A stretch of DNA of 47,298 nucleotides from a virus. The notes beneath the pieces are model-generated. The model had not been told where the DNA came from. It did no database searches and saw nothing but the letters and a program-made list of their open reading frames with translations. The DNA is taken from positions 1 through 47,298 of IMG/VR virus record IMGVR_UViG_3300000101_000027. One strand, written 5' to 3'. Position 1 is the first letter of the stretch, and every line of letters starts with the position of its first letter. The position numbers and the translations under genes are program-made. Shown here piece by piece: positions 1 to 40,800 of the stretch.

Positions 1-1088
1 GATGCATAGTTTTGTAGGAAACGGTCTTTCCAAACATCAGAACCATTTGACGTATCTACAGTTTTATATGCTTCAACAACAATATAGTTACCCAGTGAAA
101 GTTGATCCCAATCTGTATCAATCTGAATCTTGTTTGTGTGTCTATTGAATCTTAGTTGCTGTTTACCAACCAACATCTCATCTAAAAGAGATAGATGAGC
201 CATTGACATATAGTAATGAGTTATGTTATAATTAACTATGTCGTGTAAGTTATGAAGAATAAACTGATACTTTGCGTTAAACATACCAGTACCAGTAGAT
301 ACTTCTGATTCCATTGGGAATAGATTAGAAACACCAATGTATGGGTCTTCAATAGTCTCGAAAGTAAGACCAGTTGTTGCTCCACCACCTACAACAGTTG
401 TTTCAGTAGAACCATCTGTATTCTTTAACTGAAAAGTTCCACCACCAACTGAAGACGTAGATACTCTATAGTCACCAGTTGCTAGTGTTGCTCCACCAGA
501 TAGCACACCAGATACTCTAATCAACTGACCTACTTCTGGAACATTTCCAGTTGTAGCAAACGAAGCACTTGTATCAGTTATCGTTATTGTGCCAGTCATT
601 TTCGTCTTAACACTTAGATCAATGTAGCGAGTTTCGTACAACCCTCTGTATAAATCTGTTATTTGTCGTGCATCATTAGCCCCATGCACACTTGCGAAAG
701 TATCACTTGTAGCAAACTTACCTATAGTAAACTCACTTAGTGATGGTCTTTTGAAGAAAACTCTGTTGTTATCTACATCGACTCCAACTACAGTTGCTTT
801 TGCTGTGGCTTCTTCAGCACCACCGCTAGATGAAGATACTTCTTTGATGGCATCACCTACTTTGAAGTCACCCTCTGAAAGTGTGCTAAATTCGATATAA
901 GAGTTCAGTACTCTGGCTTTATAATATACTTTTTCTACACCATCGAAGTGATAATCATGATAATATGCTAACGCCTCATCAACTCTATCTGTCACTTGAT
1001 CATCAGAAACATTGATATCGATTACTGGTTTACCCAGTTTTCTGAGACAATATTCTTTAAATTCGGCTTTAGTTGTTGGCTCTGCCAT
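1..1088 (-). CDS. gp13: Neck protein, T4 gp13-like (partial, runs off left edge)
   Basis: Neck protein that in T4-like phages joins the filled head to the tail. The visible 362 codons are open to the left edge, so the C-terminus is missing. The N-terminus has the family signature: KEYCLRKLGKPVIDINV, then a run reading DDQVTDRVDEAL, then YHDYHFDG. The last visible residues (KDRFLQNYA) match the segment near T4 gp13 residue 250 as I remember it. Residues about 164-248 form a beta-rich block (VGQLIRVSG, TGDYRVS, GLTFET) that I do not recall in T4 gp13; it matches blocks in other proteins of this window and probably accounts for extra length. The start at 1088 has an AGGAA ribosome site about 6 bases upstream and a late promoter box at 1122-1129. 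The gene is separated from the other minus-strand genes by the plus-strand cassette 1235-7960. Family call is firm; the meaning of the insert is inference. Confidence 0.8.
   Translation of the reverse strand, partial: MAEPTTKAEFKEYCLRKLGKPVIDINVSDDQVTDRVDEALAYYHDYHFDGVEKVYYKARVLNSYIEFSTLSEGDFKVGDAIKEVSSSSGGAEEATAKATVVGVDVDNNRVFFKRPSLSEFTIGKFATSDTFASVHGANDARQITDLYRGLYETRYIDLSVKTKMTGTITITDTSASFATTGNVPEVGQLIRVSGVLSGGATLATGDYRVSTSSVGGGTFQLKNTDGSTETTVVGGGATTGLTFETIEDPYIGVSNLFPMESEVSTGTGMFNAKYQFILHNLHDIVNYNITHYYMSMAHLSLLDEMLVGKQQLRFNRHTNKIQIDTDWDQLSLGNYIVVEAYKTVDTSNGSDVWKDRFLQNYA
345..599 (-). repeat. Module B copy inserted in the neck protein
   Basis: About 85 residues of gp13 (roughly 164-248) with the strand pattern VGQLIRVSG, then TGDYRVS, then TFQL, then GLTFET. 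The same pattern occurs near 16379-16645 (YVRVSG, GNYRVS, FSLR), at 37980-38207 (VGTLIRVSG, IYKIS, GLTFEI), and more weakly at 19793-20020 and in the N-terminal third of the LRR protein. It is a protein-level repeat; DNA identity between copies is not obvious by eye. Confidence 0.55.
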
Positions 1089-1121
1089 GTTCGATTCCTA
1101 AATTATGTTGGTATAATATAC

Positions 1122-1129
1122 TATTTATA
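1122..1129 (-). promoter_or_regulatory. T4-style late promoter box for gp13
   Basis: The plus strand reads TATTTATA, so the minus strand carries the exact T4 late -10 sequence TATAAATA. It lies 33 bases upstream of the gp13 start codon, in the short divergent gap. Function is inferred from motif and position. Confidence 0.7.
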
Positions 1130-1165
1130 AGCAATAAATTTGTGCTTTTCATCAGATACAATGAG

Positions 1166-1183
1166 TATAAATATTTATAAATA
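1166..1183 (+). promoter_or_regulatory. Tandem, partly palindromic late promoter boxes
   Basis: Two exact TATAAATA boxes lie on the plus strand at 1166-1173 and 1176-1183, 50-60 bases before the start of the gene at 1235. Bases 1166-1179 are a perfect palindrome, so 1172-1179 also reads TATAAATA on the minus strand. This element could fire both ways, toward the plus cassette and, as a second site, toward gp13. Confidence 0.7.
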
Positions 1184-1234
1184 AGTGATAACAGACTTCA
1201 CTTAATTTCTACTTGAAAGGACAAAGGATTAAAA

Positions 1235-1657
1235 ATGAGCATAACAATACCTAGCGTAGTTACAATATCTGGTACTTCACCAACAGCAGTCGCTACAACT
1301 TCAGATTTACCTGTATCATCGGTAAACAACGGAGACGGCACTCATACCCACACTTATGGTATTCCGTACAAAGGTGGAAAGAGTACATTCGCATTTTATG
1401 GTGACTCTAATGCGTTCAACACTGTAACTAAGATTGAAATTCAAGCCGCATTTGATGGTGGACAACTAACTGATGGTAATGAAACTGCCCCTGCTCTCTA
1501 CACCGGGAATTTTATAACACTAACTGACAATCAAGATGCCATAGTTAGTGTTACAGGTAATGATATAGTATCTATAGATATTGGTAAATGTATGCTAAGA
1601 TTTAAAGTTACTGTAACCGGCACCATGCAAAGTGACATTAATATTGCAGTATCGTAG
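1235..1657 (+). CDS. Hypothetical 140-residue virion-associated protein
   Basis: I do not recognise a family. The protein is small, rich in Thr, Ser, Val and Gly, without charged clusters, signal peptide or membrane segment, and looks like one or two beta-sandwich domains. A GDGTHTHTYGIPYKGG stretch near residues 33-48 and an alternating beta pattern at the C-terminus (RFKVTVTGTM) fit a fibre-associated or decoration protein. It is first in the plus-strand cassette, behind the tandem late boxes at 1166-1183 and a purine-rich ribosome site (AAAGGACAAAGG) ahead of the ATG. It ends 11 bases before the large adhesin-like gene at 1669, so the two are probably cotranscribed and may act together on the tail surface. 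Function is inferred from context only. Confidence 0.55.
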   Translation: MSITIPSVVTISGTSPTAVATTSDLPVSSVNNGDGTHTHTYGIPYKGGKSTFAFYGDSNAFNTVTKIEIQAAFDGGQLTDGNETAPALYTGNFITLTDNQDAIVSVTGNDIVSIDIGKCMLRFKVTVTGTMQSDINIAVS

Positions 1658-1668
1658 GGGAGGGCTAA

Positions 1669-4278: not shown

Positions 4279-4279
4279 T

Positions 4280-4696
4280 ATGATAACATGGAAAATAACT
4301 AAACTAATACCAAACACGATTCCGCCTCTCGACAGAGTGATAATAGAATGCGAGTGGCAATGCACATATAAAACTGACTCTGTTTTCAGAATATGTCATG
4401 GAAATATAAAACTTCCTCACAATCATTTAACAGAAGAATCGATGATTGCATTTGATCTGCTTGAAGAAACGACTGTTCTTGGATGGGTTAAGAGTATACT
4501 TGGACAAGAGACTGTTGATGCTATAGAAGATATGCAGAATGGTGGCTTAGATGTCGAAGAAGTTGATTTAACTGATTCGAATACTGTATGGCCTGCTTAC
4601 TGGGAAGGTGCCCCAGCAGACCCACAATACGATGAGTGGGGCAATCTAGTTGACTCTGAAGGCAACCCGATAGACGAGCAAGGTAATCCATTATAA
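4280..4696 (+). CDS. Conserved small phage protein of unknown function, with acidic GNP repeat tail
   Basis: 138 residues. The N-terminal half (MITWKI, then a beta-strand ending RVIIECEWQC, then LGWVKSILGQETVDAIE) resembles small proteins found beside fibre genes in many T4-like phages (I believe the DUF7936 type); no role is established that I know of. The C-terminal 25 residues are acidic and repetitive: three units of roughly seven residues, EWGNLVD, SEGNPID and EQGNPL. The GAGGTAAG ribosome site lies inside the end of the previous gene, whose stop codon is one base from this ATG, so the two are translationally linked. The next gene has its own promoter (4706-4713). Small size and position suggest a chaperone, adaptor or minor fibre component, but this is a guess. 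Confidence 0.6.
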   Translation: MITWKITKLIPNTIPPLDRVIIECEWQCTYKTDSVFRICHGNIKLPHNHLTEESMIAFDLLEETTVLGWVKSILGQETVDAIEDMQNGGLDVEEVDLTDSNTVWPAYWEGAPADPQYDEWGNLVDSEGNPIDEQGNPL

Positions 4697-4705
4697 TTGT
4701 GTTGC

Positions 4706-4713
4706 TATAAATA
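4706..4713 (+). promoter_or_regulatory. T4-style late promoter box
   Basis: Exact TATAAATA in the 48-base gap before the gene at 4745, 31 bases upstream of its ATG. It indicates late expression of the 1071-residue protein independent of the first three plus-strand genes. Confidence 0.7.
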
Positions 4714-4744
4714 GTATGATAACACATGAACCTAAGAGAATCGC

Positions 4745-7700
4745 ATGGCTACTACTAGAAAATATTTAAAATTTGGTTTAAGAGCAGACAAAAATCTTGC
4801 TGACATGAGTGATCAGTCAGAGGGTCTTGGCAACCTTTTAAATAATCTAGATAGAGATGTTAGAGATGTTCATGGCGATCTTGTAGGATTTAGAGTAAAT
4901 GATGTTGTTCCTTTACAGCAACTCAGTCAAACAGATATTGATAGCACTTCACCTAGTCCTGGGGCTATACCAGAAGCATGGACATGGTTAAGAGAAAATA
5001 TTGCTTTTCAGATAGTAGATGGAAGAAACGCAAACATTCAACCTCTTGTTACAATACAAGATGAAATAAACAAAGGAAAAATAGTATTAGGTGATCCACC
5101 CTTTGTAAGTGGTGGAACAGGTCCGCTAACAACATATATCCCATCAAACAGATTTTCTCCATACGCTCCAAACAGTGGCTTGGAAAATGAAAAAGTTGCG
5201 GCAAATAAAATTCGACAAGGAAATAGATACAGAATAGAAAGTCTTGGCTCGCCTGCAGTATCAGACGGGTTATGGAACAATGTATCCACCACAACTGACA
5301 CTGGTTACACCGCAGGTGACATATTCACAGCATCAACCAATAGCACACACGAGTTTTCATTAGATGATATGTCTGATGGAACAGATGGTTCTATTCAGCT
5401 AAAAGTGGGTAATGGATTATTGGCGGGTATGCAAGTAAGATATCTGGAAACAGACTCTACATATTCCCCAAGCAACTTAACTCATAATACTGTATACTTT
5501 ATTCGTGATGTAAATGGATCGGCAGGACAAGGAACGATCAAACTAACTCTACAAGTAGATGGTACTGCGGTAGCATTTACCAAGCCAACTATTGAAGATA
5601 TCGATGATCCAAATCGAACAGTTAGAAGTGCTAATAATTTTAAACTTGTATTAGAAGGTTATGAGAATGGGCAAATTAGAAATGTGACCATGCCTTCAGG
5701 AAAATTTGCCACAGAAGCTGAAAGTTTAAACCCAGAAGAATTAAACTCTACGTTAGTATATACTAAAAAAATAGACCCTACTGGGGCTATAGGTAATGAT
5801 CTACAAAATGATGATGAGTTTTGGAGTGAAAGTGGGTTTTCGTTATCTACACCATTTTATCCAGTATTTCAAAATAACTTTGGTGGAGTTCAGTTTGAAG
5901 GATATCTAGAAGATGGATTTAATCCAACATTCGAAACAAATGGATTTCTTGTAGTGGAGCAAGACTTACAAGAAGATGGGACAGATAATAATTGGGAACT
6001 TATCAAAGGTGTTAATACTGATAGATTAAGACCAATATATCCAGTGACTTGGGGAGTTGACCCAAATGATTCTAACAAAACAAGACTTACATTTAATAGC
6101 AATGGAGAAGACATAAAGAGACTTGCAGTAGGTATGCTAGTCACAGTAAGGCCTGATGAATACGCTGCCGCTTCTGAAGCATCTGAAGCTGACCCAACCA
6201 ATCAGGCGTTATTTGTCGCACTAAGCGATATTGGAAGTGTCTCTCAACCAATATCGTCTGTAGATGTTGCTAACAACTTTATTACTGTACCAAAAATGAC
6301 ATATAGTGACAGTAGTGGTAACATCCAAAATGCCACTGGAAGTTCATCTTTTGATGTTACCATTAATTGGAACATGGGTGGAAGCGAAAGAATAAGATTT
6401 CCAATAACAATATCTAAGCCAGTTGGTAGAAGACGAAGAGTAAGATTTACTTGTTGGTGGCCGCAAAGAAATCTGGGAAACAGAGATTTAGGACAGACAG
6501 ATAAGGTATTTTCTGACATTTCTAGTAATAGTGTCAACTTGAAAGTAGGAAACTTTTATAAAAGTCAAAACAATCAAGATTTTAGTAATAAGAAATATAG
6601 TTTTCCATTCTATAGAGATAGAAGAGCAAGTGCAACACAGCAAGAATCTAAAAATCAACTTAAAGTTGAGTATACAGCAAGAAACATTTATGAACCTGTT
6701 AGATACGCTAAAGACACTACAGACTACTATGACGCAACAACATATGGAGCCGAAGGTAGAATTGGGGTAATTCCTATTCAGTTGGGTTCTAATGGTCTGA
6801 TGAAATATGCGCCAACAAGTGGTGATTTTTTAAATAGCCTGGCAGAAGTAAAGGCTTCACACAATGGTGATAATTTCATTGCTAATTTAGGTGATATAGT
6901 CATTACACATAATGAGTCAACTGGAACATATCACGCATTTAAGATAACATTTAATGACTTAAATGAGGCAGCCTTCTTGGTTGATTCTAGTTACTCAACG
7001 GTCACTGGTATAGCAGAGGGCACAATTCATAGGGTTTTACTTGTTAGAAATAAAGGTCTGCATGGAATATATTCTACTACACACGATGGTTCTGATCATA
7101 CTTTGACTCAACTGTCTACAAGTGATGCATCATATTCTTATCATATCAATCAAGTTAAAAGAGAAGATTTTATCTATAAGGTCGAGTATGATAATATAAG
7201 TTCTTTAAGTACTGTCACGAGTGGTGGTAATACTTATACTTATGCACCCATGAATCAGATTGCATTTAAGCTAGAAACTATTAATCATAGCGATACTCGT
7301 GATCCAAGTACAACTACTGCAAACTTTACAGTTTCTGCACACCCACAAGCAAGTGGCGGTGTATTCACAACATCACAGGCTCTTTCTACGAATAATGGCA
7401 TAATCTTAGCATATTCATCAAAGGGTCTAAATGATAGATCGGCTGTAACAGAGTGTACAGATGTTTTTGGTCACGAAGTTTCAACAACAGCATCTGCTAC
7501 AACCAGTGTGCTTACGCTAAAAAGCGTAGAAGGTATAAGTGCTGGCGATATAGTTTATGTAGATGGAACTATTCCATATAGCGAAACTGATCCGACTGTT
7601 GTTGGTGCTGTTAGCACCATTACCAAAACAATTACTCTCGTGAACAATAATGGAAGCGTGGATATAACTAAAGAAGCCCCTCCAGGCACAACCGTAGTAT

Positions 7701-7960: not shown

Positions 7961-10161
7961 GCAACAGTTAAAATTCTGTAAGTACCAACTCCATCAGAAT
8001 CTATACCACTGTGAGTAGATGCGCTATAGCTTGAATTGGGTATTCCACCAGATACTGTTGGTGGTTCTATACCATTATCGCCCTTAGCTAGAATATAATA
8101 AATCTCTCCATTGATGTTTATCGGTATAGTATGCGTATAATCTGCAATAAGATCGTTTCCGTAGCTACCTTGAGCTGTTTGAAATGCACCTGAGTCGAAA
8201 GCATCTTGTGCAGTATTTGATAGTATTAGTTTTGGTGAACCAAGAGCAAGCCCACCGCTACCTGCGGTAAGCGTACTACCATTGACTGCGGCTGTAAATA
8301 CGCTACCTTCTTGAACTAAACCTTGAACTCCAAGACCCGCCCAATCTCTTCCACTACCAAGACTGGTTATCGTAAACTTTTCTCCTGCAACAATGTCTGC
8401 AAACGCAGTACTTGCTTTTCTTTGGAAGACGAAGTTTTGTGACTGTGCTATAAGAGACTCAGTTTTTAACGCAGGGAAAGTTATACTTCCTATCGTATTT
8501 GCGGGTTGACCCCCACCGCCTCCAACTTCAGACCAGGGATTGCTTGGATCAGTAAATGCACGAATTGCTCTGTCGTCAGCAGGGTTTAAAATATATAGAC
8601 CAGGCGCTTCTAATGCCTTAACAAAACCATTAGTACTTGGTATTACTCCAAAAGTCTTAGCTGTTGCTTCAAATTGTGCAAGTTTAACTTTACCATTGGT
8701 GATGGTAGAGGTAGAAGAGTTTACTTTGAAGTAACTACCGACTATGTAGACATTATCTGTTGTATTCGCTATATCATTCCATCTCAACTGCGGGTCTACA
8801 ACAAAGGTGAAGCCAGAATGAGTTCCAGTGCCATTAGGGGATATTTCAATTATAGAGTTAGCAGATTCGGTAAGACCTAAAGTTATCCTATTCCCATTTA
8901 CTGCTTGAACATAATATACGCCTTCGTTGGTAATACCAGAGATATTATTATTATCGCCTGCCTCGTTTTCAAGATACTGTAGCTTATCATTGACGACAAG
9001 ACCATGAGAAGCACCAAGGTCTATCTCATGCGAATTCTCGTCTACCTGACTAGTTGAAAATGTGAATATTCCGTCATTATTGGGCCCAATATTAGCAACA
9101 CCTAAACTTTCTATTCGATAAATCTTTCCAGTAGTAATATCTGCGCTACCAGTAGTTAGTTCAGGTGTAGATGGTAGGATAATATTCGAGCCCACACTAT
9201 CCCATTGACTTTTAATCACATCTCCTAACTCTACAATTTCATATGGCTCACCTACAACCAATTGACCAAAAGGAGTGTTCCCACCTATCGTTACAGTATG
9301 CTGTGCATCTCCATTATTAACTATTCTGACAGAACCATCAAACCTAATACCAGACTCTGTGCCTTCGTTAGAAAAGTCATCTGGTAAATATGTAAGAATT
9401 GTTTTTGACTTGATAGCGGGTAAACTACTTAGATTCTGCTGAATTGATGATACTCGATCAAACGGCTGATTGAGTATTTCTTCAGCTAGTGTGCTACCAG
9501 TAGTTGCTGTTCTCTCTACATATAAATTCTTTAAATGGTCTGTCGTAACTTCATCATTTCTAGTGATGGTCATACTACTAACATTACTCATATCAAGCAA
9601 TTCTTGTGTTGTAATATTTTCTAACTGAAAGCGTCTGTTGCCATCACTATTTACGACTTTATGACTGTAGCTTACACCTTTATTGAGAGATACGATAGTA
9701 CCCTCAGTAAAAGCAACTTTAGCTTTACTGATATTAGTAAATGCTGTCCACCCCTCTCCGTCAATAAAAACTGAAGTGAAGTCTTCTCTACCTATAACCT
9801 CTAATGCGACTCCACCTGCACCTGTCGCTCCTTCACCAGAAGCAATTGCAGTAAACGTATCTCCAATATCAGCACTAGATAATGCCGAACCACCTACAAT
9901 TATCCAGTTACGAGGATTAAAAGTGTCGCCAATATTAGTTATTTTATATTTCTTACCCGGCACAAATGAGCCATAAAATATTGGAGTGTCGTCAGTAAAA
10001 TTTGGATCATTTATAAGCGCAGATTTAAACTGAGTATTACCTATGAATAACTGTATGTCTCTACTTATTCCGATGCCACCAAGATTATCAAGTGCGTTTC
10101 TGTCCGAAACAACTGTTGAACTTTCTTGTAGATTTAGATTTGTTACGAAACCTTGTGCCAT
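7957..10161 (-). CDS. Modular structural protein built largely of module A and B copies
   Basis: 734 residues; no enzyme motif. The N-terminus carries SDRNALDNLGG, matching the docking motif at the head of the LRR fibre. Module A copies occur at about residues 66-116 (VPGKKYKITNIGDT, then IGDTFTAIASG), 302-326 (VVGEPYEIVELGD), 342-365 (TTGKIYRIESLG) and 591-637 (VAGEKFTITSLG, then EGSVFTAAVNG). The third copy runs into a module B unit at about 390-457 (VNDKLQYLENE, GVYYVQAV, GFTFVV). A GGGGG linker sits near residue 547. The start overlaps the stop of the upstream LRR gene by one base (TAATG). It is last in the minus block and converges on the plus cassette. I infer a tail fibre or fibre-tip assembly; nothing identifies the target. 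Confidence 0.65.
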   Translation of the reverse strand: MAQGFVTNLNLQESSTVVSDRNALDNLGGIGISRDIQLFIGNTQFKSALINDPNFTDDTPIFYGSFVPGKKYKITNIGDTFNPRNWIIVGGSALSSADIGDTFTAIASGEGATGAGGVALEVIGREDFTSVFIDGEGWTAFTNISKAKVAFTEGTIVSLNKGVSYSHKVVNSDGNRRFQLENITTQELLDMSNVSSMTITRNDEVTTDHLKNLYVERTATTGSTLAEEILNQPFDRVSSIQQNLSSLPAIKSKTILTYLPDDFSNEGTESGIRFDGSVRIVNNGDAQHTVTIGGNTPFGQLVVGEPYEIVELGDVIKSQWDSVGSNIILPSTPELTTGSADITTGKIYRIESLGVANIGPNNDGIFTFSTSQVDENSHEIDLGASHGLVVNDKLQYLENEAGDNNNISGITNEGVYYVQAVNGNRITLGLTESANSIIEISPNGTGTHSGFTFVVDPQLRWNDIANTTDNVYIVGSYFKVNSSTSTITNGKVKLAQFEATAKTFGVIPSTNGFVKALEAPGLYILNPADDRAIRAFTDPSNPWSEVGGGGGQPANTIGSITFPALKTESLIAQSQNFVFQRKASTAFADIVAGEKFTITSLGSGRDWAGLGVQGLVQEGSVFTAAVNGSTLTAGSGGLALGSPKLILSNTAQDAFDSGAFQTAQGSYGNDLIADYTHTIPININGEIYYILAKGDNGIEPPTVSGGIPNSSYSASTHSGIDSDGVGTYRILTVA
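8251..9966 (-). repeat. Four module A copies in one protein
   Basis: Within the 734-residue protein the unit GxxYxIxxLG, followed by a W, a G and a GxxFxA strand, appears four times, at 9814-9966, 9184-9258, 9067-9138 and 8251-8391. The copies differ enough to be seen only at protein level. Confidence 0.55.
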
Positions 10162-13100
10162 TATGCTTTACCATCCATTTTTACTGCCCAACCTCTGTTT
10201 TCTATAGCTTGAATTGTAGAATAAATTGAATTTGGGTCTGTACTGTAACTACCATCTAAACCAATAATCTGAGTGTAATTTAATCCAGACCCTGTGTTAC
10301 CAATAGTACCATCGGGATTAGTTACAGTAACCATTATTTGATTTTGCAAATCAATATAATACTTAGCTTCATCTGGTACAAACTGTCTATTGTTAACTGC
10401 TGTAAGTACATCTTCAAAAAATGCTTTTATTGCATTCCAATCTGAACTGCCCTTTGTCTGAAGTGCAGGGAACCTGTTATTCTTCAAATCAAGAGAGTGA
10501 AAACTGATTGCGGGAGCAAAGTTACCAGAAGTATAATTAGACAAGTTATTGAAACTGAAGTCATAGTCTTCACAATCTGAGACTCCATTCATTGATGGTA
10601 TAGTTCCTACCAACTGATTATTGTTTAATAGTATTTTTGATATAGAAGAGCCAGCGATTATATTAGGAATATTTCCAGTCAGCGTATTAAAAGACAAATC
10701 TATTTCTTCGACACTATTTAGTCCAGTTAGTGTAGGAACATTACCATAAAACCCTAGACTAGTCAAATCTGTACCATCAGTAGCATTGAACTCAGTAGAA
10801 TTTCTTCTTGCGACTAATCCAGTACCAAAATCTCTTGGCTTTTCACTCGCAGGGAAGTTAGCATCAACATTACTGGAATCATGTTCTGATGGTAAAATCT
10901 TTCGAGCATATATTCCATAATCATTAACGAAAAACGGAGTACCGCCAGCACGACTAAGACCATCTTGAGTTGCTTCAAAAGTCAAGCCTTCATACCATTG
11001 CCAGGGATTGTCTGATAGACCTTGTCGATTCCAAGGCGTATTGACCAAAAATGGGAGCATCGACGGGTATGACTTCATTACTCTATAAAAACAACCTTGC
11101 TCTAAATCGTGTACTTCTTGTGTATTTGATTCATCACTTCCTCTGAATTTATCACCTACTTTGGGCGTAGACCCTGTACCAAATTCTGCGCTATTTGCCA
11201 CCCAACCTAAGTCTGTCCAATCTTGAGTTGTGGTAGTTCCTAAGTCCTTGATAATATAAACAAAGTGTTGAACAACTTGATTAGCGGTCAAATCTCTGAA
11301 TATAAAAAGATCACCCTCTTTAACATGAGTTCCGTGCTGAGTTGCGTTGTTGTCTAAGTCTGCACTATTAGAAGGTATACCACCAAATTCCCAATTATAT
11401 GTTCCATTTGGTATAATTTTATCAACTACAGCCGCATTACTAGTCGCATATTCTTGAGCAGTTGCATCTAACGCTCTATGTGTCGCTAGTGATGTGGTAT
11501 CAGAAGAATTGCCACTAATATCGCCCTCTGTAGTATCATTACCCGGGTACCAACCCATATCTTCATACTCAAATGTCAATAGTTTTACCTGATTTGGGTC
11601 ACTAACTATATTCATCTGAACTCTGGAAGCACCTGAGCCCCATGCATCTTTTTGTACTTGATATATTCCGCCCTTTTTCATCGACTGAAATGGAACAGAA
11701 GTTGACGAGCCAGTTAATAATATTTTTTCCAAATTGGACATTCCTGCCAAACTTGGTATTGCGCCTACGTTACCACCAGAAATGGATAATTCTTCTAAGG
11801 CAGATAAATTACCAAGAGGAAAAGTAATGACATTATTTACATCGTCAGAGTTTACTAATCTACCGCCGCCCCAAGACGAAACATCTATATCCAATGTCAA
11901 TAGAGAATTTTGAACTGTCGATAACGCTTGCCCAGTTCTACCCGAACCATCAACACCCCAGAAGTCAGTATATGCCGCCACAGGAGACAATGTATCACTA
12001 TCTCTATTTTTTATGGTAAGAGACTTTAACTTATTGTCATTTACATTGTTTGTGCCGTCATTGAATGTGTTGTTCGCAAATCTAAAAGCAATTCCACTCA
12101 AACTGGTCAATGTTAAAGTTTCTAAATTAGGTTTATCGTTAAATGCTAATGATAGATCACCTCTACCGCACAGAGGATCGTCATGCTTAATACCAAAATC
12201 AGCAAATTTAAAAAAAGTTAATGATGCAAGATTTTGAAATAAAGTGTGGTCTACAGTTCTTAAGGCTTCCGTTGTGATTGCAGAATCAATCCCATTGTTA
12301 TCAAGATTTACTCCAGATAGTTGAGTGTTTCCACTAAAATTTGGTATATTAGAGAAAGTGTCTTGATAATATACAGTACCTTCAAGAGCATTAGTGTCAA
12401 ATTTAACCGCCGCTTGCCAGTCAGACTCTTCTTTTTTACTAGCTGTAGAAGTATCTCTATATGAATAATTAGAAGTTTTAAATGGATTTGTTCTCAAGTC
12501 TAAACCTTCCAATCGAGTACTATCTAATACTTCATTTGGAATTGCTGTATAAGAACTATTACCTACTTTGTATACCTCAACACTCTTCTCTTGCCCGTCA
12601 TTACCATTTCGTTTATATGGAGTACCGTCTGCGTTGACTCTAACTAATTCGTGATGAGTACCAACCATAGTACCACTATACGAAGTAATTGCCGTACCAC
12701 CCGGATAAGTTTTTAATGTGAATAACGCACCACCACCGCCGACAGTAGCAACTTCATATATGGTGTTATTAGCACCCGGGATTGCTGATGACGATGTAAG
12801 TTGATTGATGCCTCCGGCAAGAGTATTGGTGCTATCAACTCTTTCCCAATACTGAACATAGTCTCCTGCTTGCAAGCCATGATCAGTAATGGTGAAAATG
12901 CCAGCACTGGTAAAATTGGAGGGTTGCGTAGCAGGAGCGAATTTTACGACCTGACCAGGCCCACGAACAATTGGAGCAGTACCACCATTAGAAGTAGGGC
13001 CTACTCTTTGACTACTACTTGTCCCTCCCGGCTGACCAAAGAGTAACTTTTCGAGATTCTGCAATCTAGTAAAATCTATATTTACTACATTATCACCTTT

Positions 13101-14612
13101 TAATGATTCTCTCAAATCCAAAAGCTCTAGTGTTGTTGGTAATCTACTGAATATATCGTCATAACTTACTTCAAACTGGCTCGTCTCTGGATTAAAAGAG
13201 TTTGTGTTTTCTGAAGATAGATTATTACCTTTCAGTCTAAGTCTTTTTAGAGCAGGAGCCTTGACGTTAAAGTCTGGTAAAATTGCAAGAGAATTTCCGT
13301 TAAAATTTAAACTAGTAAGATTTGGAAGTGTGGGAAGACTATATGTATCTATATTCAGTCCAAACTCGGAGCCAATATCACCTTCTCCAGTAAGTCTTAA
13401 ATAGTTAATTTTTTCTGGAATATAAAATATCTTGAAGTTAGAGACATCAGACAAGTCAGTATTATTGTATTGTGCGGCTTTTCCACCATTCTCCAAACTA
13501 TCGTTATCGTCAACTGCCGTCGGCGAAGAGTCTAAGACGTTTACAGTTCCTGCAAGATCATTCGGAAACTGTCTTTCAAATGTTACTGGTATAGTTCCTA
13601 TACTATCGAATAGAAAGCCTTGACTACCATCAACTTGCTGAACATCTTTGCTTACTCCAACACGAAAATCTAGTGCATTACCAACACCTGGAGCAGGCAT
13701 ACCAGACAAAGTTATCGGCAAGCCCTTTACAGCAGGTACTTTTTTATATGCACCGTTTATATACAACTCTATGATGTGTGTGGGTTGCTCTGATCTATAC
13801 TTTTTAACAAGAGGTTCTGTAGTTAGACTTAATGAAGATGCCGACAAAAACTCTCCATTGTTTTTTAACTGACCACCATATAGAATATAATCATCTGGGT
13901 TTTGTGGAGCAACACCCACAGGCGACCAAGAAGAAACTCTAGACGTTGATATATCTGCCGATACATAATTCCAGTATTGATAAAGCGTGAATGTACCACT
14001 TCCAAAACTTGATATTACGCTACCAGTAGTTGCGTCTGCACTAAGTGTGAATGTTTTGGGTTGAGTGTTGGTCTGTGCTATAACTGTATAGTCACCATCA
14101 TTAAGAGATGAATCTGCTCCACCTATAGTTAACTTATCACCAACAGAAACTTCTACTTCAACACCACTAGCATCTTGAAAAACTGTATCAGCAGTAACCA
14201 CAGCATTGTTTATTGATGCAATAGATGATGAGTCTATTGTTTTTTGGATACCATTATCATTAAAATCTGTAAAGTTGTATTTAATCGCACCCGCTACCAA
14301 TCTATCATCTAGATTAAAATTGAACTCTTGAGCAATTGGGGTTATTCCGGGTCCTGCAGTTGCACTAGGGATATCATCAATTATTGAACTAACTTCAGTA
14401 GACGCACTAACTAGGTTAGATAGTATTTTATCTTGATTATCAGTTAACCCGGAAACCAAATGCAATTCATTTAAGTTAATTATTTCAGTAAGACCAACAT
14501 TCTTAATGACGTTAAGGTCCTTTGCGTTAAGACCCAAATTATTTAGAGCGAGAGTCTTATCTTCGACATCGCTAAGATCATTAGCTATATTAAGACCGTA
14601 AATAAAAGCCAT
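10161..14612 (-). CDS. Leucine-rich-repeat tail fibre / adhesin candidate
   Basis: 1483 residues. Residues 1-60 (DLSDVEDKTLALNNLGLNA) are a fibre-type N-terminal docking segment. Residues 130-210 are a module B copy (VSVGDKLTIGG, GDYTVIAQ, TFTLSAD). Leucine-rich repeats occur in three blocks: about 400-527 (LPNLTSLNFNGNSLAILPDF, then LKRLRLKGNNLS), 695-975 (LEGLDLRTNPF, then LEELSISGGNVGAIPSLAGM) and 1280-1395 (VEEIDLSFNTLTGNIPNI, then ISKILLNNNQLVGTIPSM). The gaps hold a module B-like unit at 545-660 and module A-like segments at about 978-1240 (GCFYRVMK, EGLTFEA). The LRR pattern is of the plant or bacterial LxxLxLxxNxLxGxIP type. Known role of LRRs is protein or glycan binding; receptor recognition is inference. 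Stop and start overlap the neighbours by one base (TAATG) on both sides. Confidence 0.7.
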   Translation of the reverse strand: MAFIYGLNIANDLSDVEDKTLALNNLGLNAKDLNVIKNVGLTEIINLNELHLVSGLTDNQDKILSNLVSASTEVSSIIDDIPSATAGPGITPIAQEFNFNLDDRLVAGAIKYNFTDFNDNGIQKTIDSSSIASINNAVVTADTVFQDASGVEVEVSVGDKLTIGGADSSLNDGDYTVIAQTNTQPKTFTLSADATTGSVISSFGSGTFTLYQYWNYVSADISTSRVSSWSPVGVAPQNPDDYILYGGQLKNNGEFLSASSLSLTTEPLVKKYRSEQPTHIIELYINGAYKKVPAVKGLPITLSGMPAPGVGNALDFRVGVSKDVQQVDGSQGFLFDSIGTIPVTFERQFPNDLAGTVNVLDSSPTAVDDNDSLENGGKAAQYNNTDLSDVSNFKIFYIPEKINYLRLTGEGDIGSEFGLNIDTYSLPTLPNLTSLNFNGNSLAILPDFNVKAPALKRLRLKGNNLSSENTNSFNPETSQFEVSYDDIFSRLPTTLELLDLRESLKGDNVVNIDFTRLQNLEKLLFGQPGGTSSSQRVGPTSNGGTAPIVRGPGQVVKFAPATQPSNFTSAGIFTITDHGLQAGDYVQYWERVDSTNTLAGGINQLTSSSAIPGANNTIYEVATVGGGGALFTLKTYPGGTAITSYSGTMVGTHHELVRVNADGTPYKRNGNDGQEKSVEVYKVGNSSYTAIPNEVLDSTRLEGLDLRTNPFKTSNYSYRDTSTASKKEESDWQAAVKFDTNALEGTVYYQDTFSNIPNFSGNTQLSGVNLDNNGIDSAITTEALRTVDHTLFQNLASLTFFKFADFGIKHDDPLCGRGDLSLAFNDKPNLETLTLTSLSGIAFRFANNTFNDGTNNVNDNKLKSLTIKNRDSDTLSPVAAYTDFWGVDGSGRTGQALSTVQNSLLTLDIDVSSWGGGRLVNSDDVNNVITFPLGNLSALEELSISGGNVGAIPSLAGMSNLEKILLTGSSTSVPFQSMKKGGIYQVQKDAWGSGASRVQMNIVSDPNQVKLLTFEYEDMGWYPGNDTTEGDISGNSSDTTSLATHRALDATAQEYATSNAAVVDKIIPNGTYNWEFGGIPSNSADLDNNATQHGTHVKEGDLFIFRDLTANQVVQHFVYIIKDLGTTTTQDWTDLGWVANSAEFGTGSTPKVGDKFRGSDESNTQEVHDLEQGCFYRVMKSYPSMLPFLVNTPWNRQGLSDNPWQWYEGLTFEATQDGLSRAGGTPFFVNDYGIYARKILPSEHDSSNVDANFPASEKPRDFGTGLVARRNSTEFNATDGTDLTSLGFYGNVPTLTGLNSVEEIDLSFNTLTGNIPNIIAGSSISKILLNNNQLVGTIPSMNGVSDCEDYDFSFNNLSNYTSGNFAPAISFHSLDLKNNRFPALQTKGSSDWNAIKAFFEDVLTAVNNRQFVPDEAKYYIDLQNQIMVTVTNPDGTIGNTGSGLNYTQIIGLDGSYSTDPNSIYSTIQAIENRGWAVKMDGKA

Positions 14613-18853: not shown

Positions 18854-18856
18854 ATA

Positions 18857-27247: not shown

Positions 27248-27275
27248 TTTTAATTGTATCCTTAGTAATTTATAC

Positions 27276-27283: not shown

Positions 27284-27294
27284 TATAAGTCAGA

Positions 27295-28997: not shown

Positions 28998-28999
28998 GT

Positions 29000-31900
29000 C
29001 TATCCCGTCAATGCTATTGCTGTTATGTTATACAAATGAGGGAATAAATTAACATCGGGAGTTATATCTCTCAATTCTGATGGCTGTAGTTCTGCCGAAT
29101 TACTATGTCTGAATAATATTTTTAACTGGAAAGTATTATATTTAGGCGGAACTGCACCTTCAGTTAAGTCATATTCATAATCTCTGTAGTCATAAATGTT
29201 GCCGGATATAGAAAACTCTTTTGGATTAGAAAGAACAAGTTCTTCCCAAGCACTTACAATTTCAGAGTTATCCTGTCTAACAAATCTAGCATATACATCA
29301 ATCTCGGTGCCGGCAGGCTTATATGCACTTAATTTCACCTTCAAGCCTTCAGCAGGTAACTCGTCTTTTAGAATAACTTCTTTAGTGACCCAGGCAGAAG
29401 TGCTGTTTTCATCATCAGTTATCTTATACTCGTAAGCATTTATACTCGACAATTCAGAATCAATAATAGGAGTGACTGCTTCAAAGTCATTATTATTCAA
29501 AGATAGTCTCAAAACAAAGTCTTCCGAATCACCATTTCTTAATCTTTCACTTTTACTAGTAATCCCTTTAGGCTCATCAAGACAATATACATTTGAACTT
29601 TTCTCAATAGTTTTATCTAAAATTAAATCACTACCACTTTTCTTAAACAAATTAATGTCAGTAGTTGTATTAGATGTGTTATCTACCATAACTTCTGACT
29701 GGAAGTATGACAGCTTTTGCACATCTGTACTAGTGATCGTTGCTGATGCTCCACTGGTTATGCCATATATTTTATGAGAGTTTTCTCTAGCTGTACCATT
29801 ATGCCCAGGTATTGTTGCGCTATTACCAGTTCCTGTTGCAACAAATATAGTTCCAACTTGAGGAATGACATTGCCTGGAACACCAACCTCTCTCCATGCT
29901 GTTGTTCTATCAGGACCAGCATCACCTAAATTAGTGATAGTATATGTTTTACCTGTTATAAATCTATTCGCTAGATCATCACTAAACACGCTGTTGGGTA
30001 AATTATCAATGAAATTAGTTGCTGTAGCAGAACTATTTTTAAGATGTATCTTAGATTCATTTCTAGGGTTGTAGTAAGAAACCTCTCCATAAACACATAA
30101 TTGAACATTAACATTACCTGTTGTGAAGAATGGAGTATCTATTAAGATATCTGTAGTACCCTCAGTAGCACCATCAGAAAAGTTTTCAATCTGTGCAACA
30201 ATTTTTTCATTTGGATCATCGTTTGCAACAATAAACAAGTAGTCGCCATCAGCGAATGGGAAATTATCACTACCTAAACCAACTGCTATGTTTAGTGTTG
30301 TAAGTTCTCCTGGCTGAACAACGGCAGTCGTTATATTTCCTGATCCTGGTAAGATATAAACAGACTCGTCATTTTGGAAGTGAAGAGTTTTTCTGGTATT
30401 TACTCCACCTTGACTAGTGTCGCTTGGTGACACTTTAGTATTTTCTCGTATCGTCAAAAACTCAACATCATTAGGAACTAAATCAACAGTACCAGAAGAT
30501 TCTGAGAAGTTAAATCTGTTAATGCAGAACTTGAGGTCTTCGTCTTGATAGGATTTCCAAGCACTGTCGTTCGTAGAAGTAAATAAAACACCATCACCCC
30601 AGTCATTAACTACTGGCAATTGAGATGCTACTTCACCTTTAGACAAACTTGTTGACCCAACCTTAGCTGTAAATATCAAATACTCTGGTGAGTTGCCATC
30701 TGGAATAACGACAAAACAGTATTCAGCGTCTGCTTTCAATTTAACAGGATTGTCAAATGCAAATTTAGTTGAAGCAGTACCATTTGAAGACACTAGTACA
30801 TCTTGACTCTCTAGATGTTTAACTCCGAATGGTAAAACTTTTGATGTTGGATAACCGTTACTAACTTCTCGTAACTGTAGTGTCACACCAACTGAACTAT
30901 CCTTTCTCTTGAAATATACATCAATATCACTAAGGAAAACAAAGTTTGCTCCATTTGTATCTGAGGACTTAATTCTAAATGTTTGTGCAATAGGGTCAAC
31001 AGTTTTTACTTGGAACTGTCTTTCAATTATGTTGGTAGAAACATCAAAATCAACTGTTCGTGTTGTGACATTAATTTCAGACTTATTGAGTGCAAAGTTG
31101 TACCCTCTATAAGTTGCTTTAGCATAAGATGTTGATGCAGATTTTATTGAACTATATTGATCAACATCGACAATCTCTAAATCATTCTCACCAACAAAGA
31201 ACTTACCTGCTGGCATCTCAAAAACTGCCCTTAGTTGTCCCTTACTGTTTGTATATACAGCTTTACCCTTTACTCTTCTTTCGGTTCTTAAACTACCGAA
31301 TCTATATCTACCTGTCTGATGTCTAGCACTACTTCTTCTGCCGCTAGTATTATATTTTGCCAAATCTTTTAGAGGAATTACGTCATCATTAACATCAATT
31401 TCGTCAAAGAAGAAATAGTGTCTAGTATTTGGTCTTAGACCTGCAACAAAAATTCTTATTGCTGTAGATGGAAGATATGGCTTCATTCTAACGTCAGTTA
31501 CGAAATTACCGAATGTTTGCTCTTCAGTTCTTGGAGTAGATGTCAAACTATGCATTTCTACGCCTTGTGCAAAATTTTGAGTACGCACTCTTCTAGATAC
31601 TTGTCGTGTCCCTCTACGACCCGCACCTATAGTAACATTTTCTCTTCTTACAAACTGATTAATGAGTCTCGGTGAACCAACTGTTTCTCCCTCTCTAGTT
31701 AAGGGGATAAATTCTTGAATACTATCGACTAAATCTAATATTGGGCCCTGCAAATCAATATCAAAGTTAACAGCAGGGTTTTGAACAACATCTCTATTAG
31801 AACTAAATTTAGGATAAATGTCTGCTTGACCTTGATAACTATAATAGTTAGATACACAGCTTCTAAAGTTTGTAGCATATGGCTGATTAATAATTTTAAC

Positions 31901-34852: not shown

Positions 34853-34870
34853 GTTTTATTCTCTTTTCCT

Positions 34871-36856
34871 TTAAAAGTCAAACGTGAACTTTATCTTTTC
34901 ATTCTTGTCTGGTGATCTTGATATTGGGGAAAAATCTATAAAGTGTAACAGTTCCCCACTGTATGGGTCTAAAGGCCCATGTACAACTGTGTTCGCTATC
35001 ATATTATTTATAAACGAAATAGATGTGGGTAACGTCTTAACGTAGAATTTACCTGGCATAAATCTATTACTATGTCCACCATCATAGTCTACTACAAAAA
35101 TGCTAGTAACATTATTTTCATATTTCAAATCGTGTATTCTGCCACGAATTATTTCTAGACTATAATCATATCCTCGGTCTGCTGTATCAACCGCATCTCT
35201 AGCAAAAGCCAGCTTTGCATATAGAGTAGCGTCTATTTCAGCAGTTCTTTGAGAAACAAAAACACTACCAACACTTTCTGATGTTGCTCCTATCAACGAC
35301 CAAACATTAGTATCAACATTACCTTTATCAACGATAGTATATGATACGCCGTCAACAGCATCTTGTATGTCAATCGTCTCAACATACTGCTCAATATAAT
35401 TGTTTAGCTGTCCACCGTTTGTCAATGCAGTACCAGTAACGAGAGCCCCACCAACATCATTTATCTGCAAGATGGTTCTATTATCAAACTCATGCGACCC
35501 GCTGTTAGATGGAACAAATGGCTCGCCTGTTGATGGGTCAGTAAAGGTTGGATTCTTCAAAAGACCCACTACAGAATAGGTATTACCATTTGGTATTGCC
35601 ACTCGTTCTCCGTTGAAAACTGAAACCAAAGTAATTTTACTTGTAGCCATTTCATTAATTGGGTCTGAACCATGACCACCTTTGGGAGAAACTATTGCAC
35701 GAAGAATAGTTGGATTGTCCAGTACTGATGTGCTACCCTTTAGATTCGGTGGATAGATAATACTTGCTTCTGCATATTTGTATTCTGTCCCTCTAGTTTC
35801 AAAACCAACAGATACAAGAGTTCCAAATTTATCTAGCTTACCATATGCTTTACACCTAGTGCCAGTCAATGTGCTAGGAGACACATCAATTTTTACAACT
35901 AACTGATAAATCTCTTGAGCGTTAAAAGTGTCTTCAGTCTCAATATCCAATATAATAGAGTTAGCCGCAAGAAGAGTTCTCGAGGCTTTAACTTCATATA
36001 ACTTACCATCGTTGATACCACTCTTTGCTCGTAAATACATATTTTTGTAAGCATCGTTAGAGATATACAATGATCTGCCAGAAACAACACTAGCACTAAC
36101 CACAACTTGTTTAGTTTTTCCTGTTACCAATGATGCATCTGGATTTTCAATCTTAACATCAGACGCATCATGTATTGTTGTTGCAGGCCCGAATAGATAT
36201 TGATTGAATTGACTTGGCTGTGTACTCTCTATAACAATTCTAGAAACAGACTCTTCTGCGCTACTAACAACATTGAAGTCTCCATAGCCACCATCACCTT
36301 TAGTAAATTCCGAAACAGGTAGACTCCCTGCTGTTCTATATGCGTCGGCTTCTTCTTCTGTAACAGTAAACATAACGTGCCAAACATATCCATCAGAACC
36401 AGTAAAGAAACCATAGCTTTCTGGATCAATTTCTGCGGCGATGTCTCTTGACACTGCTCCATTATTATTATCGACACATTTTAGAATGATATAATCATTT
36501 CCGTCAGCTACCTGTACACTAACAATCATATTAAGTTTTTCGATATCTTTTGTATCATCGTAAGCATCATAGACTCTTCCCTCTTCCCACGGGTTGTCTA
36601 AAAACATATATTTTGCTTCATTAGAAAACCCAGTACCACCTGCTCCCCTTGTGGCAACATCTATTCGTTTACCAAATATTATTTTTCTCTGAAAGTCTCT
36701 TTTTGAGACCTGGGTATTGGAAATTGGATCAACACTTAAATTTTCAGTCTTAGTAATACTTCGAGACGCCACGGCATAGTAGTTTTCAGTCTCTAAACTT
36801 TCAACTAAGTTTTTGGTTACGCCTACTCTAAAGTTTTCTGTTATAATTTTTGTCAT
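34871..36856 (-). CDS. gp8: Baseplate wedge protein, T4 gp8-like, enlarged
   Basis: 661 residues against 334 in T4. gp8 is a wedge subunit that links the inner wedge to peripheral proteins. Family marks: SDGYVWHVMFTV (154-165; T4 has DGYVWEYLFEI as I remember it), ILRAIVSPKGGHGSDPINEM near 384-403, typical of marine gp8 proteins, and the C-terminal FIDFSPISRSPDKNEKIKFT, matching the T4 C-terminal strand. The extra length includes a module A copy at about 499-535 (VDGVSYTIVDKGN, then VWSLIGATSESVGSVF) and a block of unknown type around 205-330. A short 18-base gap with a purine-rich ribosome site leads to the DUF4815 gene. Confident call; effect of the insertions on wedge assembly is unknown. 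Confidence 0.8.
   Translation of the reverse strand: MTKIITENFRVGVTKNLVESLETENYYAVASRSITKTENLSVDPISNTQVSKRDFQRKIIFGKRIDVATRGAGGTGFSNEAKYMFLDNPWEEGRVYDAYDDTKDIEKLNMIVSVQVADGNDYIILKCVDNNNGAVSRDIAAEIDPESYGFFTGSDGYVWHVMFTVTEEEADAYRTAGSLPVSEFTKGDGGYGDFNVVSSAEESVSRIVIESTQPSQFNQYLFGPATTIHDASDVKIENPDASLVTGKTKQVVVSASVVSGRSLYISNDAYKNMYLRAKSGINDGKLYEVKASRTLLAANSIILDIETEDTFNAQEIYQLVVKIDVSPSTLTGTRCKAYGKLDKFGTLVSVGFETRGTEYKYAEASIIYPPNLKGSTSVLDNPTILRAIVSPKGGHGSDPINEMATSKITLVSVFNGERVAIPNGNTYSVVGLLKNPTFTDPSTGEPFVPSNSGSHEFDNRTILQINDVGGALVTGTALTNGGQLNNYIEQYVETIDIQDAVDGVSYTIVDKGNVDTNVWSLIGATSESVGSVFVSQRTAEIDATLYAKLAFARDAVDTADRGYDYSLEIIRGRIHDLKYENNVTSIFVVDYDGGHSNRFMPGKFYVKTLPTSISFINNMIANTVVHGPLDPYSGELLHFIDFSPISRSPDKNEKIKFTFDF
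35006..35013 (-). promoter_or_regulatory. Possible internal late promoter box in gp8
   Basis: Minus strand reads TATAAATA inside the gp8 coding sequence, about 155 bases before the DUF4815 gene. The match is exact but also encodes FINN codons, so chance is possible. Confidence 0.3.
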
Positions 36857-36871
36857 TTCTTTTTCGATCCT

Positions 36872-37864
36872 CTATACAGATCGTCTCTCCTTTGTAGTTG
36901 GTCCTATCACATATGGATACTCTGGTTGATCAAGATCATCTAGCGTTATAAAGTACGCATAAGTTCCTTTTTTATAGTCTGGAGTTATGCAGAATCTCCC
37001 ATTGTGTTCGTCTAAAAAAGGACCTGAATTATTACCATGTTTACTAGAATTATACGAGTAGTCTTCTATGAAACTACCCATTGGGTAAGTATCTCTTAAT
37101 GCTTTTCTATCTTCGGACTCATCGTTGATACTTCTTTTATCATAACTACTTCTCATCTTAACTATAGCACTACCACTATTGAACGGGCTTTGATATCCAT
37201 AAGGTCCGTAAATTGGAAAACCATCAAAAGCAAATCCTAATATTTTTGAGTGACCAGAAGTGAAATTTTTACTATCAAAAATACCACCGGCGTGTCTCAA
37301 AAATTCACCAAAATTTGGTTCATCGGCTGGCTTTTGTAAATTAAAGTATGCACTACTTTGTTTTAGTTTGCTTACATTATTCCATCCATTAAAGTAGAAT
37401 GCTCCACTTCTATATCTATACTCTCCATTTGCTTCTGGTCTTCCACCACAATTATCAGTTGGATACTGGCTAGTCAGTAACTCTGGAACATTGAAGGTTC
37501 TAAAACCAGAACTTGTTCCATTATTATCTTGTTGTACCCCGGGTGGAAAAAGTGGAACACCATTTGCCATGACGCCTATTGCTCTTAACTCAAACAAACC
37601 AGAATCATTTATATAAACATCATGTGGATTAGAGTCAACAAGGTCTGCTCCACTATATCCAGTATTACTATCGTTTACTCGCAGTATTCCACCCTGCCCA
37701 CCACGATAATCTATCGCATAAGTTTTATCCTGATCAGCAATAACTGAACTGCCAGCAAAGAGTCTAGGGCCGCTATTTTTAGGTAAACCACCGCCATCAA
37801 TATTAGAGCCGCCTGCTAAAGCGGGAAATGGATCACCATCTGTAGTAACTTTTAATATTGTCAT
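36872..37864 (-). CDS. YHYH-domain virion protein
   Basis: 330 residues. The second half is a YHYH-domain: NCGGRPEANGEYRYR at 138-152, KILGFAFDGFPIYGPYGY near 208-225, LDEHNGRFCITPDYKKGTYA near 284-303 and YPYVIGP at the end. The name-giving YHYH residues are YRYR here (149-152), so both histidines are lost, while the rest of the domain is well kept. YHYH-domain proteins occur in marine phage baseplate clusters and in bacteria; their function is not settled, though the histidines suggest metal binding. The first 100 residues are Gly-rich and extended. The gene lies between gp8 and the gp7-position protein, with 12-15 base gaps, so it is coexpressed with the wedge genes. Confidence 0.75.
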   Translation of the reverse strand: MTILKVTTDGDPFPALAGGSNIDGGGLPKNSGPRLFAGSSVIADQDKTYAIDYRGGQGGILRVNDSNTGYSGADLVDSNPHDVYINDSGLFELRAIGVMANGVPLFPPGVQQDNNGTSSGFRTFNVPELLTSQYPTDNCGGRPEANGEYRYRSGAFYFNGWNNVSKLKQSSAYFNLQKPADEPNFGEFLRHAGGIFDSKNFTSGHSKILGFAFDGFPIYGPYGYQSPFNSGSAIVKMRSSYDKRSINDESEDRKALRDTYPMGSFIEDYSYNSSKHGNNSGPFLDEHNGRFCITPDYKKGTYAYFITLDDLDQPEYPYVIGPTTKERRSV

Positions 37865-37877
37865 TTATTTACCTATA

Positions 37878-40800
37878 TTATTCTGCTACCGAACCTTCTC
37901 GGCTCACTTGAGTAGCTTGTAACTGGTCTCCATTTTCTGTAACTAAGTTGTCACCGGTTGCGGATACCTCTGTTCTGGTAACAATTTCGAATGTTAATCC
38001 TGCTAACGCACCATTGGTTGTAAACACAGTTTCGTTCGATTCTGTTACCAATGTCAAACTACTCGGCGAAGCCTGTGATATCTTATAAATCTTAGGTAGC
38101 GGCGCTAGTGAATCATCAGTTGCAAACTCTTCTAATGGTAAGTTACCAACTCCAGTATTATTACCACTAACTCTAATTAGAGTGCCTACTGTAATACTAC
38201 CAAAACTAGAGCCTGCGAGTACACCAACACTATTAATAGACTGAACTGAACCAGGCATAGTACCATAACTTTCTGAATATGTACCACTTCCACCTTCTGT
38301 TACTAAATCAACCCTATCAACATCAAAGAATACTATCTCTGAAGTTAGATTAGTTTCAACTCTGTTTACACTATTTATCAAAGGCGTACTAAACAGTTTT
38401 GTACCAGAAACACCAACAACATCGTCTACAAAACTCTTATATATTTCTGGACCCGTTGTTGCTTTAATGTCGTATGAATATTCTTGATAGTAATCGTTGT
38501 CGTGTATTATGGCTGACGAATCGTTCAAGAATGATGATTTAGTTTTCCATCTACCCAAAGTGTTTCCCTGTCCAAATGACTCAACACTTGCTGTGGCAAC
38601 TTCTTGATCAAAGTTGGGGCTTTCTGTATTTTTATTTACGATATCAACAGTCGCACCTGTTACATACTTATACCCTGTGTGAGTTATAGCGACCTCTTCG
38701 ATCTGACCAGAAGCATACGAAGCATTGCCTCTAACTACAGCATTTGCTCCCATTGGTTGAGATTCTTGATCTTGTCTCAAACTTGTTATCGCTCTATCAA
38801 TAGCCCTAATCGTGATGGGTTCGTTATCATCAAATGTGTAAAAACTCATTGGTCTAAAGTAAAAGTCTTTACCGTCTTGTTTTAAGAATTTTGCTTGAAC
38901 TGTATACTCTCTCGGAGCAACAGAGAATGTGGTTTGGCTATTACCGTACGGAGAATCTATTGTCACCGAATTAGTCGAAGCACCGATAGTAGATAAACTT
39001 GCCGCAGAAATGTTATTGGTTTCATCTATTTGTTCAGTTGGTAAAGTAATTTCTTGCGTTATAACTTCATCCTTTTCTAATTTGAACCCAGAGTTATCAA
39101 AGTTCAATATAATATCTTTTTTATTTAAGGACTCTATCAATTTATTTACAACCCTAACACCAACATCATTTTGATAGTTTGTACCTGGGTTATTCCCAAT
39201 AAGAGTTTTTAAACTTCCTATTCTGAACGTAACTGAACCAAAAGCATTCCCCAATAAAGTGTCGATATTTTCTAAGTCAGCAACACCCAACATATCATAG
39301 TTACCATCAGCATATGGATTTTGGAGATCTAAAAGCCCTGCGTTTTGTGGATCAAGAATCTCTCTATAATAGTCACCAATCTTATCTCTTGATAATGTAA
39401 CAATCTCTGCATCGTCAATAGAGTCTAATTCAAACGAAGAAGATTCGTTCAAAGAACTTACGGAAGTACATCTTACCACGTTAGTGTGGCTACCATTCAC
39501 AAAAGCACTGAATGTTCCATTAGCAAGAACACTTTCTGGGGGAGTTCTACTTTCACTACCTTGGTCTAATAGTGGATTAACAAATACTCCACCAGTTGTC
39601 CAAGTATTAGTGCTAACTGATGCATCATTATTATTAGTATCGGTTAATGTACCTCTAACATTATTATAGTCAACACACACTCCACTTTTACCCACAAGCG
39701 AGTAATCATTAGGTAAGGCTGTAGCAGTAAATGTAGCAGTATAAAAAATATGTAGCATCGCTATATCAAAAAGAGTACCATTTGTTCCGGGCGCAGATGG
39801 CATTGTAGCCGGCATAATGATGGTATCGCCTACTTGAGACTCTGCTGACCCACCCAACAAACTCCAATCAGTATTACCCAGTGTCTGTATCATATAACTG
39901 CGACCAGGTTTCAACGCTGAATACTCATTTGCAATATTATGTATAGCTAGACTAGCATCAGTGAATGTGGGAATATCAAACCCTAGATTAGTCCAATCAG
40001 TAAGAGTCGTGTTTCCGAAATCTGCTATACTGTATAGTCTGCCAGGTACAAGGTCTTGCACATTAGTGAAATAACTATCGTATACGCCGGGAGTCGATGC
40101 AGTTTCAAATGCAGTACCAATTGTCAACTTAGGAAGAATACCTTGTTGTACCAAGTAATGTAAGAGTAATGCGTATACTTGTTTTGCAGGAGTAAAGATA
40201 GCATCATGGTTTTCAATAGAACCAGTATTATCATTAATCTGATTTATCAACAAAGTGTCGAACACAAAGTCTTCGCCCGCATATCCTGTTCTAGCACCAA
40301 TCTTAACCCAGTCATCTGTACCTAGTGTGGTGCCTGGGTATATGACAGTATAGTGTTGACCATTTTTTAGTTGATTCAGTGTTAAGTTAGGAAGGTTCGT
40401 ACTTTGTGTTGCCGGTATAACTGGAGAAATGGTTGGAGTTCTATCTATAAGATCAGTCTCTTCTGAACCAGAACCTTGCGCCCCGGAGGCTTCATTTGGG
40501 TTTTGTTCAGTTCCTATCCAATCATCATTATCACCTGCTCCATCATAGAAACCATTGTTAAGACCAAGCATATACGTCTTTAATATTCTTATGTCACCAG
40601 TTTGCACTCTCATTGACTTATGACTTAGATCACCATCATGATCACTAAATAGTGTACCTTCTACTACTGAACCAGCTTGTGCAAATTCAGCAGTGATAGT
40701 ATTATTAACTGTATCTAGTACTGTGATCTTCGCTTTATTACCAGTTGTATCGCCTACTAATATCTCACCCAAAGCGAATACATTTGCTCCGTTTTCTGGA

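Follow-up and report, generated by a model that had tools for sequence, protein, structure and literature searches.

A small domain inserted repeatedly into virion proteins of aquatic phages and found rarely in bacterial surface proteins

T4 Hoc is among the Ig-like phage decorations proposed to contact cell-surface carbohydrate weakly. Decorations of this kind (Ig-like, FN3 and Big_2 domains, as in the C-terminal domain of lambda gpV, SPP1 gp17.1*, T5 pb6 and Hoc) are small, accessory and patchily present in virions, and the element reported here, module A, resembles them in all three respects; it differs in its length of ~45 residues with a helix, in the absence of an Ig beta-sandwich and in its usual placement as an insert in an internal loop. 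For phage Ig and FN3 domains, the weak carbohydrate contact is a proposal and is unproven (PMC8718954). The BACON repeats of crAss-like phages, a proposed carbohydrate-binding domain (PMC6949934), are like module A repeated in a phage protein; however, Pfam scans of 61 module A copies gave no BACON match. Smug et al. (2023; PMC10684548) surveyed phage domain mosaicism by means of ECOD domains and the sharing of profiles, and the sections of that survey used here describe fragments common to otherwise unrelated tail proteins, as module A is, without describing module A itself. Finally, the T4 gp8 baseplate wedge (1n7z) represents the family of one of the host proteins, a wedge family that does not define module A.

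The window analysed here covers 47.3 kb of an IMG/VR virus record of 47.8 kb and carries T4-like baseplate genes. Module A spans ~40-50 residues with the consensus (A)GsF..G..Y.I...G.T.[WF]t.iGA....vG..FtAtGaGsGtGtA; its conserved positions are mainly Y, I, W/F, F and A, which look like core residues, together with turn glycines, and the copies are highly variable outside these core columns (mean column identity 26%). Most copies have diverged from the literal motif: the relaxed pattern GxxYxIxxLGxTxWxxxG occurs once in the window. A starting profile was built from seven clear copies. Profiles that left out one protein at a time re-found the copies of the tailspike (2.3e-9), the DUF4815 protein (1.3e-9), gp8 (6.6e-6), the gp7-position protein (0.01, 1.8e-5 and 3e-8) and a 734-aa protein (4.9e-8, 5.5e-4 and 4.5e-5). 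Iterated over the open reading frames (ORFs) of ~150 related loci, the profile collected 216 domains in 168 ORFs, scored most full copies in the window at 24-42 bits and added an LRR protein (31.6 bits) and a 1071-aa protein (24.2 bits), while the top scores were 9.1 bits in 200 shuffled window proteomes and 7.6 bits in reversed ORFs. A profile free of window sequence (A3; 30 copies) re-found nine window copies at E <= 4.2e-4. Because of the shuffle ceiling, the leave-one-out recovery and the recovery by the window-free profile, the repeat is neither due to chance nor circular; module A is a real domain, uncatalogued in the databases searched.

An earlier note on this DNA had located the motif in eight proteins, core wedge proteins as well as fibres, and described the copies as lying in unrelated proteins; profiles recovered all eight close to where it placed them, and the mixture of unrelated hosts was borne out. 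On the plus strand, the 1071-aa protein carries one copy (aa 158-197, 5216-5335; window-free profile 5195-5338, E 5e-6), and a second unit, module B (GL...D/M.V.YLE......YYV..VNG), follows it directly (aa 196-300, 5330-5644, plus strand). All other copies are on the minus strand. The 734-aa protein, credited with four copies, has two whole ones (aa 66-106, 9844-9966, 36.5 bits, window-free profile 1.3e-10; aa 590-625, 8287-8394, 32.0 bits, window-free profile 3.1e-5), a first half (aa 301-325, 9187-9261, 16.2 bits, window-free profile 3.9e-5) and a copy broken into two parts (aa 342-360 and 457-481, 8719-9138). The halves of the latter score 8.3 and 9.4 bits and, when rejoined, 18.8 bits, whereas none of 150 control joins, which left out segments holding real module A copies, exceeded 10.4. 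Nested between them is module B (aa 361-456, 8794-9081, minus strand; matched by blastp at E 2e-5 to its counterpart in the 1071-aa protein), which also occurs as weak tandem copies in L079/L080. The 1483-aa LRR protein has a copy at aa 1119-1156 (11145-11258) and the beta-helix tailspike one at aa 834-868 (24644-24748, 36.8 bits). In the 1636-aa protein the copy is degenerate (22106-22210, 4.4 bits), and it was accepted because orthologues with homologous flanks (L102, L109, L126 and L127) have clear copies at the same position.

The remaining hosts in the window are the DUF4815 protein (aa 1631-1690, 29783-29962), gp8 (phrog_438; Foldseek probability 1.00 to T4 gp8 1n7z; aa 501-553 with the third strand included, 35198-35356, 41.6 bits) and the gp7-position wedge protein (phrog_17744). 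Of the three copies credited to this last protein (the first at aa 674-710, 40260-40370, 34.1 bits; the third at aa 826-858, 39816-39914, 34.4 bits, window-free profile 1.6e-8), the middle one is a first half only (aa 780-806, 39972-40052, 27.2 bits). Gp7-position proteins (o1503 of the window, L102, L060 and L113) regularly have such a first half ~20-25 residues before a full copy. An interruption of copy 2 by copy 3, which the FTATA that follows might suggest, was dismissed because in L009 this downstream string accompanies a complete copy. Module C (G..IRVSG..sG...l..G.YrV) occurs in four window virion proteins, one of them neck-type: o362 (aa 169-249; 3-1088), o1413 (aa 736-826; 14612-18853), o1503 (aa 1377-1471; 37878-42389) and o1636 (aa 1242-1329; 18857-23767), the best pairs matching by blastp at E 1e-8 to 0.004. 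The neighbouring 1413-aa and 1636-aa proteins (14612-23767) both match phrog_1645, but module A is present in just one of the two. A 330-aa protein (36872-37864), encoded between gp8 and the gp7-position gene, has a FAFDGFPIYGPYGY stretch resembling YHYH proteins.

Module A is an accessory insert, present or absent in orthologous proteins (gp8, DUF4815, PilY1). In gp8 it occupies position ~501-536 of o661 in 27 non-redundant orthologues, the window included, and lies at ~444 in two others; the remaining orthologues have a short turn where it would sit, and in the gp8 model it is placed between host strands 487-496 and 568-580. Among DUF4815 proteins, the module-bearing clade has the sequence SSAT..NFIDD-[module]-V..G..SGA, and the others have SSAT..NYI..VITGYSTGA. 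Bacterial PilY1 orthologues lacking module A likewise show precise empty sites. Virion proteins tolerate the module in their loops, most often at a beta-hairpin turn, or close to their termini.

The module is predicted to fold as an autonomous strand-helix-strand-strand mini-domain. AlphaFold modelled the DUF4815 copy, with 61 diverse copies in the alignment, as strand 15-20, helix 28-35, strand 48-50 and strand 66-69 (block pLDDT 84-93 over residues 11-50); whole gp8, modelled with gp8 orthologues only, has the same order of elements at 505-510, 516-521, 532-534 and 548-553 (block pLDDT ~91-94 across the module). Given that the two alignments are largely independent, the agreement between the lone copy and gp8 was a test that could have failed. 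Two checks proposed in the earlier note thus came out in its favour, as the profile also reaches far beyond the seed copies. Its statement that the unit belongs to no named family holds for PDB, Pfam, NCBIfam and PHROGs: sequence searches of the four gave no consistent significant family match, only scattered single weak ones, and a PDB structure search with the lone model found no resemblance (best probability 0.07). In BFVD, ten proteins of uncultured phages match it in structure at probability >= 0.89; they include a tip attachment protein J and also a YHYH protein, a type resembled by a stretch of the 330-aa neighbour of gp8. Membership of the Ig-like, FN3 or Big families was rejected on size and topology (~50 residues of strand-helix-strand-strand against an Ig beta-sandwich of ~80-100 residues) and by profile: no Ig or FN3 family in Pfam matched above threshold, with one of 61 copies weakly matching PF22359 (E 0.023). 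No CBM family in Pfam was matched either. The literature searched contained no description of the motif, an absence that is no proof of novelty.

How did module A come to sit in so many proteins? In the window lineage, sequence comparison indicates that the copies are old, mostly inherited vertically and diverged in DNA. When the module columns were left out of the gp8 tree, two changes sufficed to explain all module states, and three do so on the DUF4815 tree (two if one contig is dropped). With close relatives excluded, the nearest neighbour lies at the same site for 151 of 201 copies, an approximate count, since the flanks were clustered by single linkage and several sites fell together in one cluster. 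The copies in the core proteins of the window are far closer to orthologous copies than to each other, and no DNA repeats linking copies were seen within the two multi-copy genes (those of the 734-aa and gp7-position proteins). These observations speak against recent shuffling within the genome of the window, which was therefore rejected, so that the "actively shuffled insert" of the earlier note stands as regards insertion, with empty sites to match, and not as regards current activity here. There are two departures from vertical descent, the second clearer than the first: (i), the copy of the LRR protein is nearest to those that other phages have in their gp7-position proteins, a hint of an older transfer; (ii), in the related contig IMGVR_UViG_3300003937_000082, a module near the C-terminus of the DUF4815 protein has no counterpart in the orthologues and, over 101 nt, shares 80% identity with the copy in the contig's own tailspike, in unrelated flanks. 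This shows that module A moved fairly recently between virion proteins of this relative, the one case in which such movement is shown. Between close orthologues, the dN/dS of module A is 0-0.41 (small counts), so the copies are kept by purifying selection. As regards a mobile element such as an intein, a homing endonuclease or a DGR cassette, the unit is presumably too small to hold a nuclease.

Near-consensus copies are present in many viral contigs (137 confirmed places in one search) and in ~20 groups of host proteins; single-linkage clustering with the modules masked gave 21, with gp7- and gp8-type proteins falling together in one of them. Typed phage hosts include gp7, gp8, a phrog_232 wedge protein, a baseplate wedge subunit, tailspike, a tail fibre J with FN3, tail tube, tail protein and the podovirus fibre gp80; proteins of siphoviruses, podoviruses and myoviruses are all represented. 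Among the hosts that could be typed, which leaves out many, nearly all are virion or cell-surface proteins. The nearest relative of the window, at 52.6 kb, has 12 module A matches. Most sequences come from metagenomic fragments, and some near relatives lie outside the phage search. A single copy is present in a structural protein of the virion (UYE97271.1) of the cultured cyanophage S-TIM54. When two copies and the tailspike were compared with cultured phages by tblastn, nothing matched, in a searched set that may not include near relatives. No module A was found at E <= 0.001 in the whole genomes of S-PM2, P-SSM2 and HTVC008M, so it is dispensable for related phages.

In bacteria module A is rare. 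An earlier scan of bacterial genomes with a copy farther from the consensus confirmed no match, a pattern scan with a nearer-consensus copy found four genomes, and a further ~1640 sampled genomes, with some overlap, added two carriers. The hosts are PilY1 in two genomes, a 5089-aa frame in which module A accompanies TPS, YDG and MBG_2 domains, and a 9861-aa open frame (L241 / G003:C21) with eight tandem copies and a borderline RTX match. That these are stray phage contigs in metagenome-assembled genomes is unlikely for PilY1 (228-kb contig) and the TPS protein (401-kb contig) and possible for L240 and L242.

What module A does is a matter of inference. The pattern is that of a display scaffold: almost every typed host belongs to the virion or the cell surface, conserved positions are core-like and the others vary. 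We tentatively favour, at a little under even confidence, a surface-display domain that works like the Ig and FN3 decorations of phages, probably by weak multivalent adhesion to the bacterial surface; adhesion is judged the likeliest role by analogy with those domains, and two of the alternatives below are serious rivals. Module A would have been inserted repeatedly into virion proteins and then inherited vertically under purifying selection. Each copy would form a small displayed surface, and multi-copy host proteins in the virion would multiply these into a weak multivalent contact with the bacterial surface, allowing the phage to stay and reorient before receptor binding; bacteria, on rare occasions, would have taken the module into pilus-tip and secreted adhesins. 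The eight tandem bacterial copies, the up to 12 matches in the relative, the BFVD matches to tip attachment protein J and the YHYH protein, the shared predicted fold, the empty sites and the low dN/dS were counted in favour of this reading. On the other side, module A shows no conserved polar or aromatic patch marking a ligand site, S-PM2, P-SSM2 and HTVC008M do without it, and in core wedge hosts the copies may be hidden within the baseplate; that copies are exposed at the surface, adhere and have a ligand is what we infer.

A first alternative is a structural spacer or clamp: the inserts would enlarge the contacts between adjacent proteins of the baseplate and tail and so stabilise the virion, with no part in touching the host. 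This is not unprecedented: the tail tube of YSD1 has an extra inserted domain that clamps subunits (PMC8718954). The position of the module in gp8 and DUF4815 is strongly conserved within one clade, the module is under purifying selection, and the gp8 and DUF4815 copies tend to co-occur in the same phages. However, the module's hosts in siphoviruses, podoviruses and myoviruses and its bacterial hosts PilY1 and the TPS-type proteins have no neighbours in common, and the tandem arrays of the bacterial frame do not suit a baseplate clamp; we judge a clamp somewhat unlikely. A compact domain that is merely tolerated, or selfish, spreading between virion genes by illegitimate recombination with little benefit to the phage, would agree with the patchy distribution, the half copies, the copy interrupted by another module, the same-genome transfer in the relative and the several related phages without it; yet the long vertical retention and the low dN/dS speak of constraint, though perhaps on folding alone, and no DNA repeat was found at the copies examined, so that we regard this as improbable. 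Least probable is shielding, whereby modules would not bind but would vary the exposed surface so that the phage escapes antiphage surface factors or receptor decoys, as the high variability outside core columns might suggest, but no sign of diversifying selection was seen between close relatives.

The adhesive surface-display reading can be extended to a broader one, which we consider rather doubtful: that module A is an undescribed fold family serving aquatic phages as a portable adhesion unit, placed in unrelated virion proteins of all three tail types and traded with secreted and pilus-tip adhesins of bacteria. Should the interpretation hold, some of the bulk of aquatic phage virion proteins that now lacks an explanation would come down to a single recurring unit, open to naming in annotation, and phages would own a second, non-Ig way of decorating their virions. 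The clean empty sites and the cultured carrier S-TIM54 make the role of such decorations directly testable. The presence of module A in PilY1 and TPS-type proteins, for its part, suggests a traffic of domains between phage particles and bacterial adhesins.
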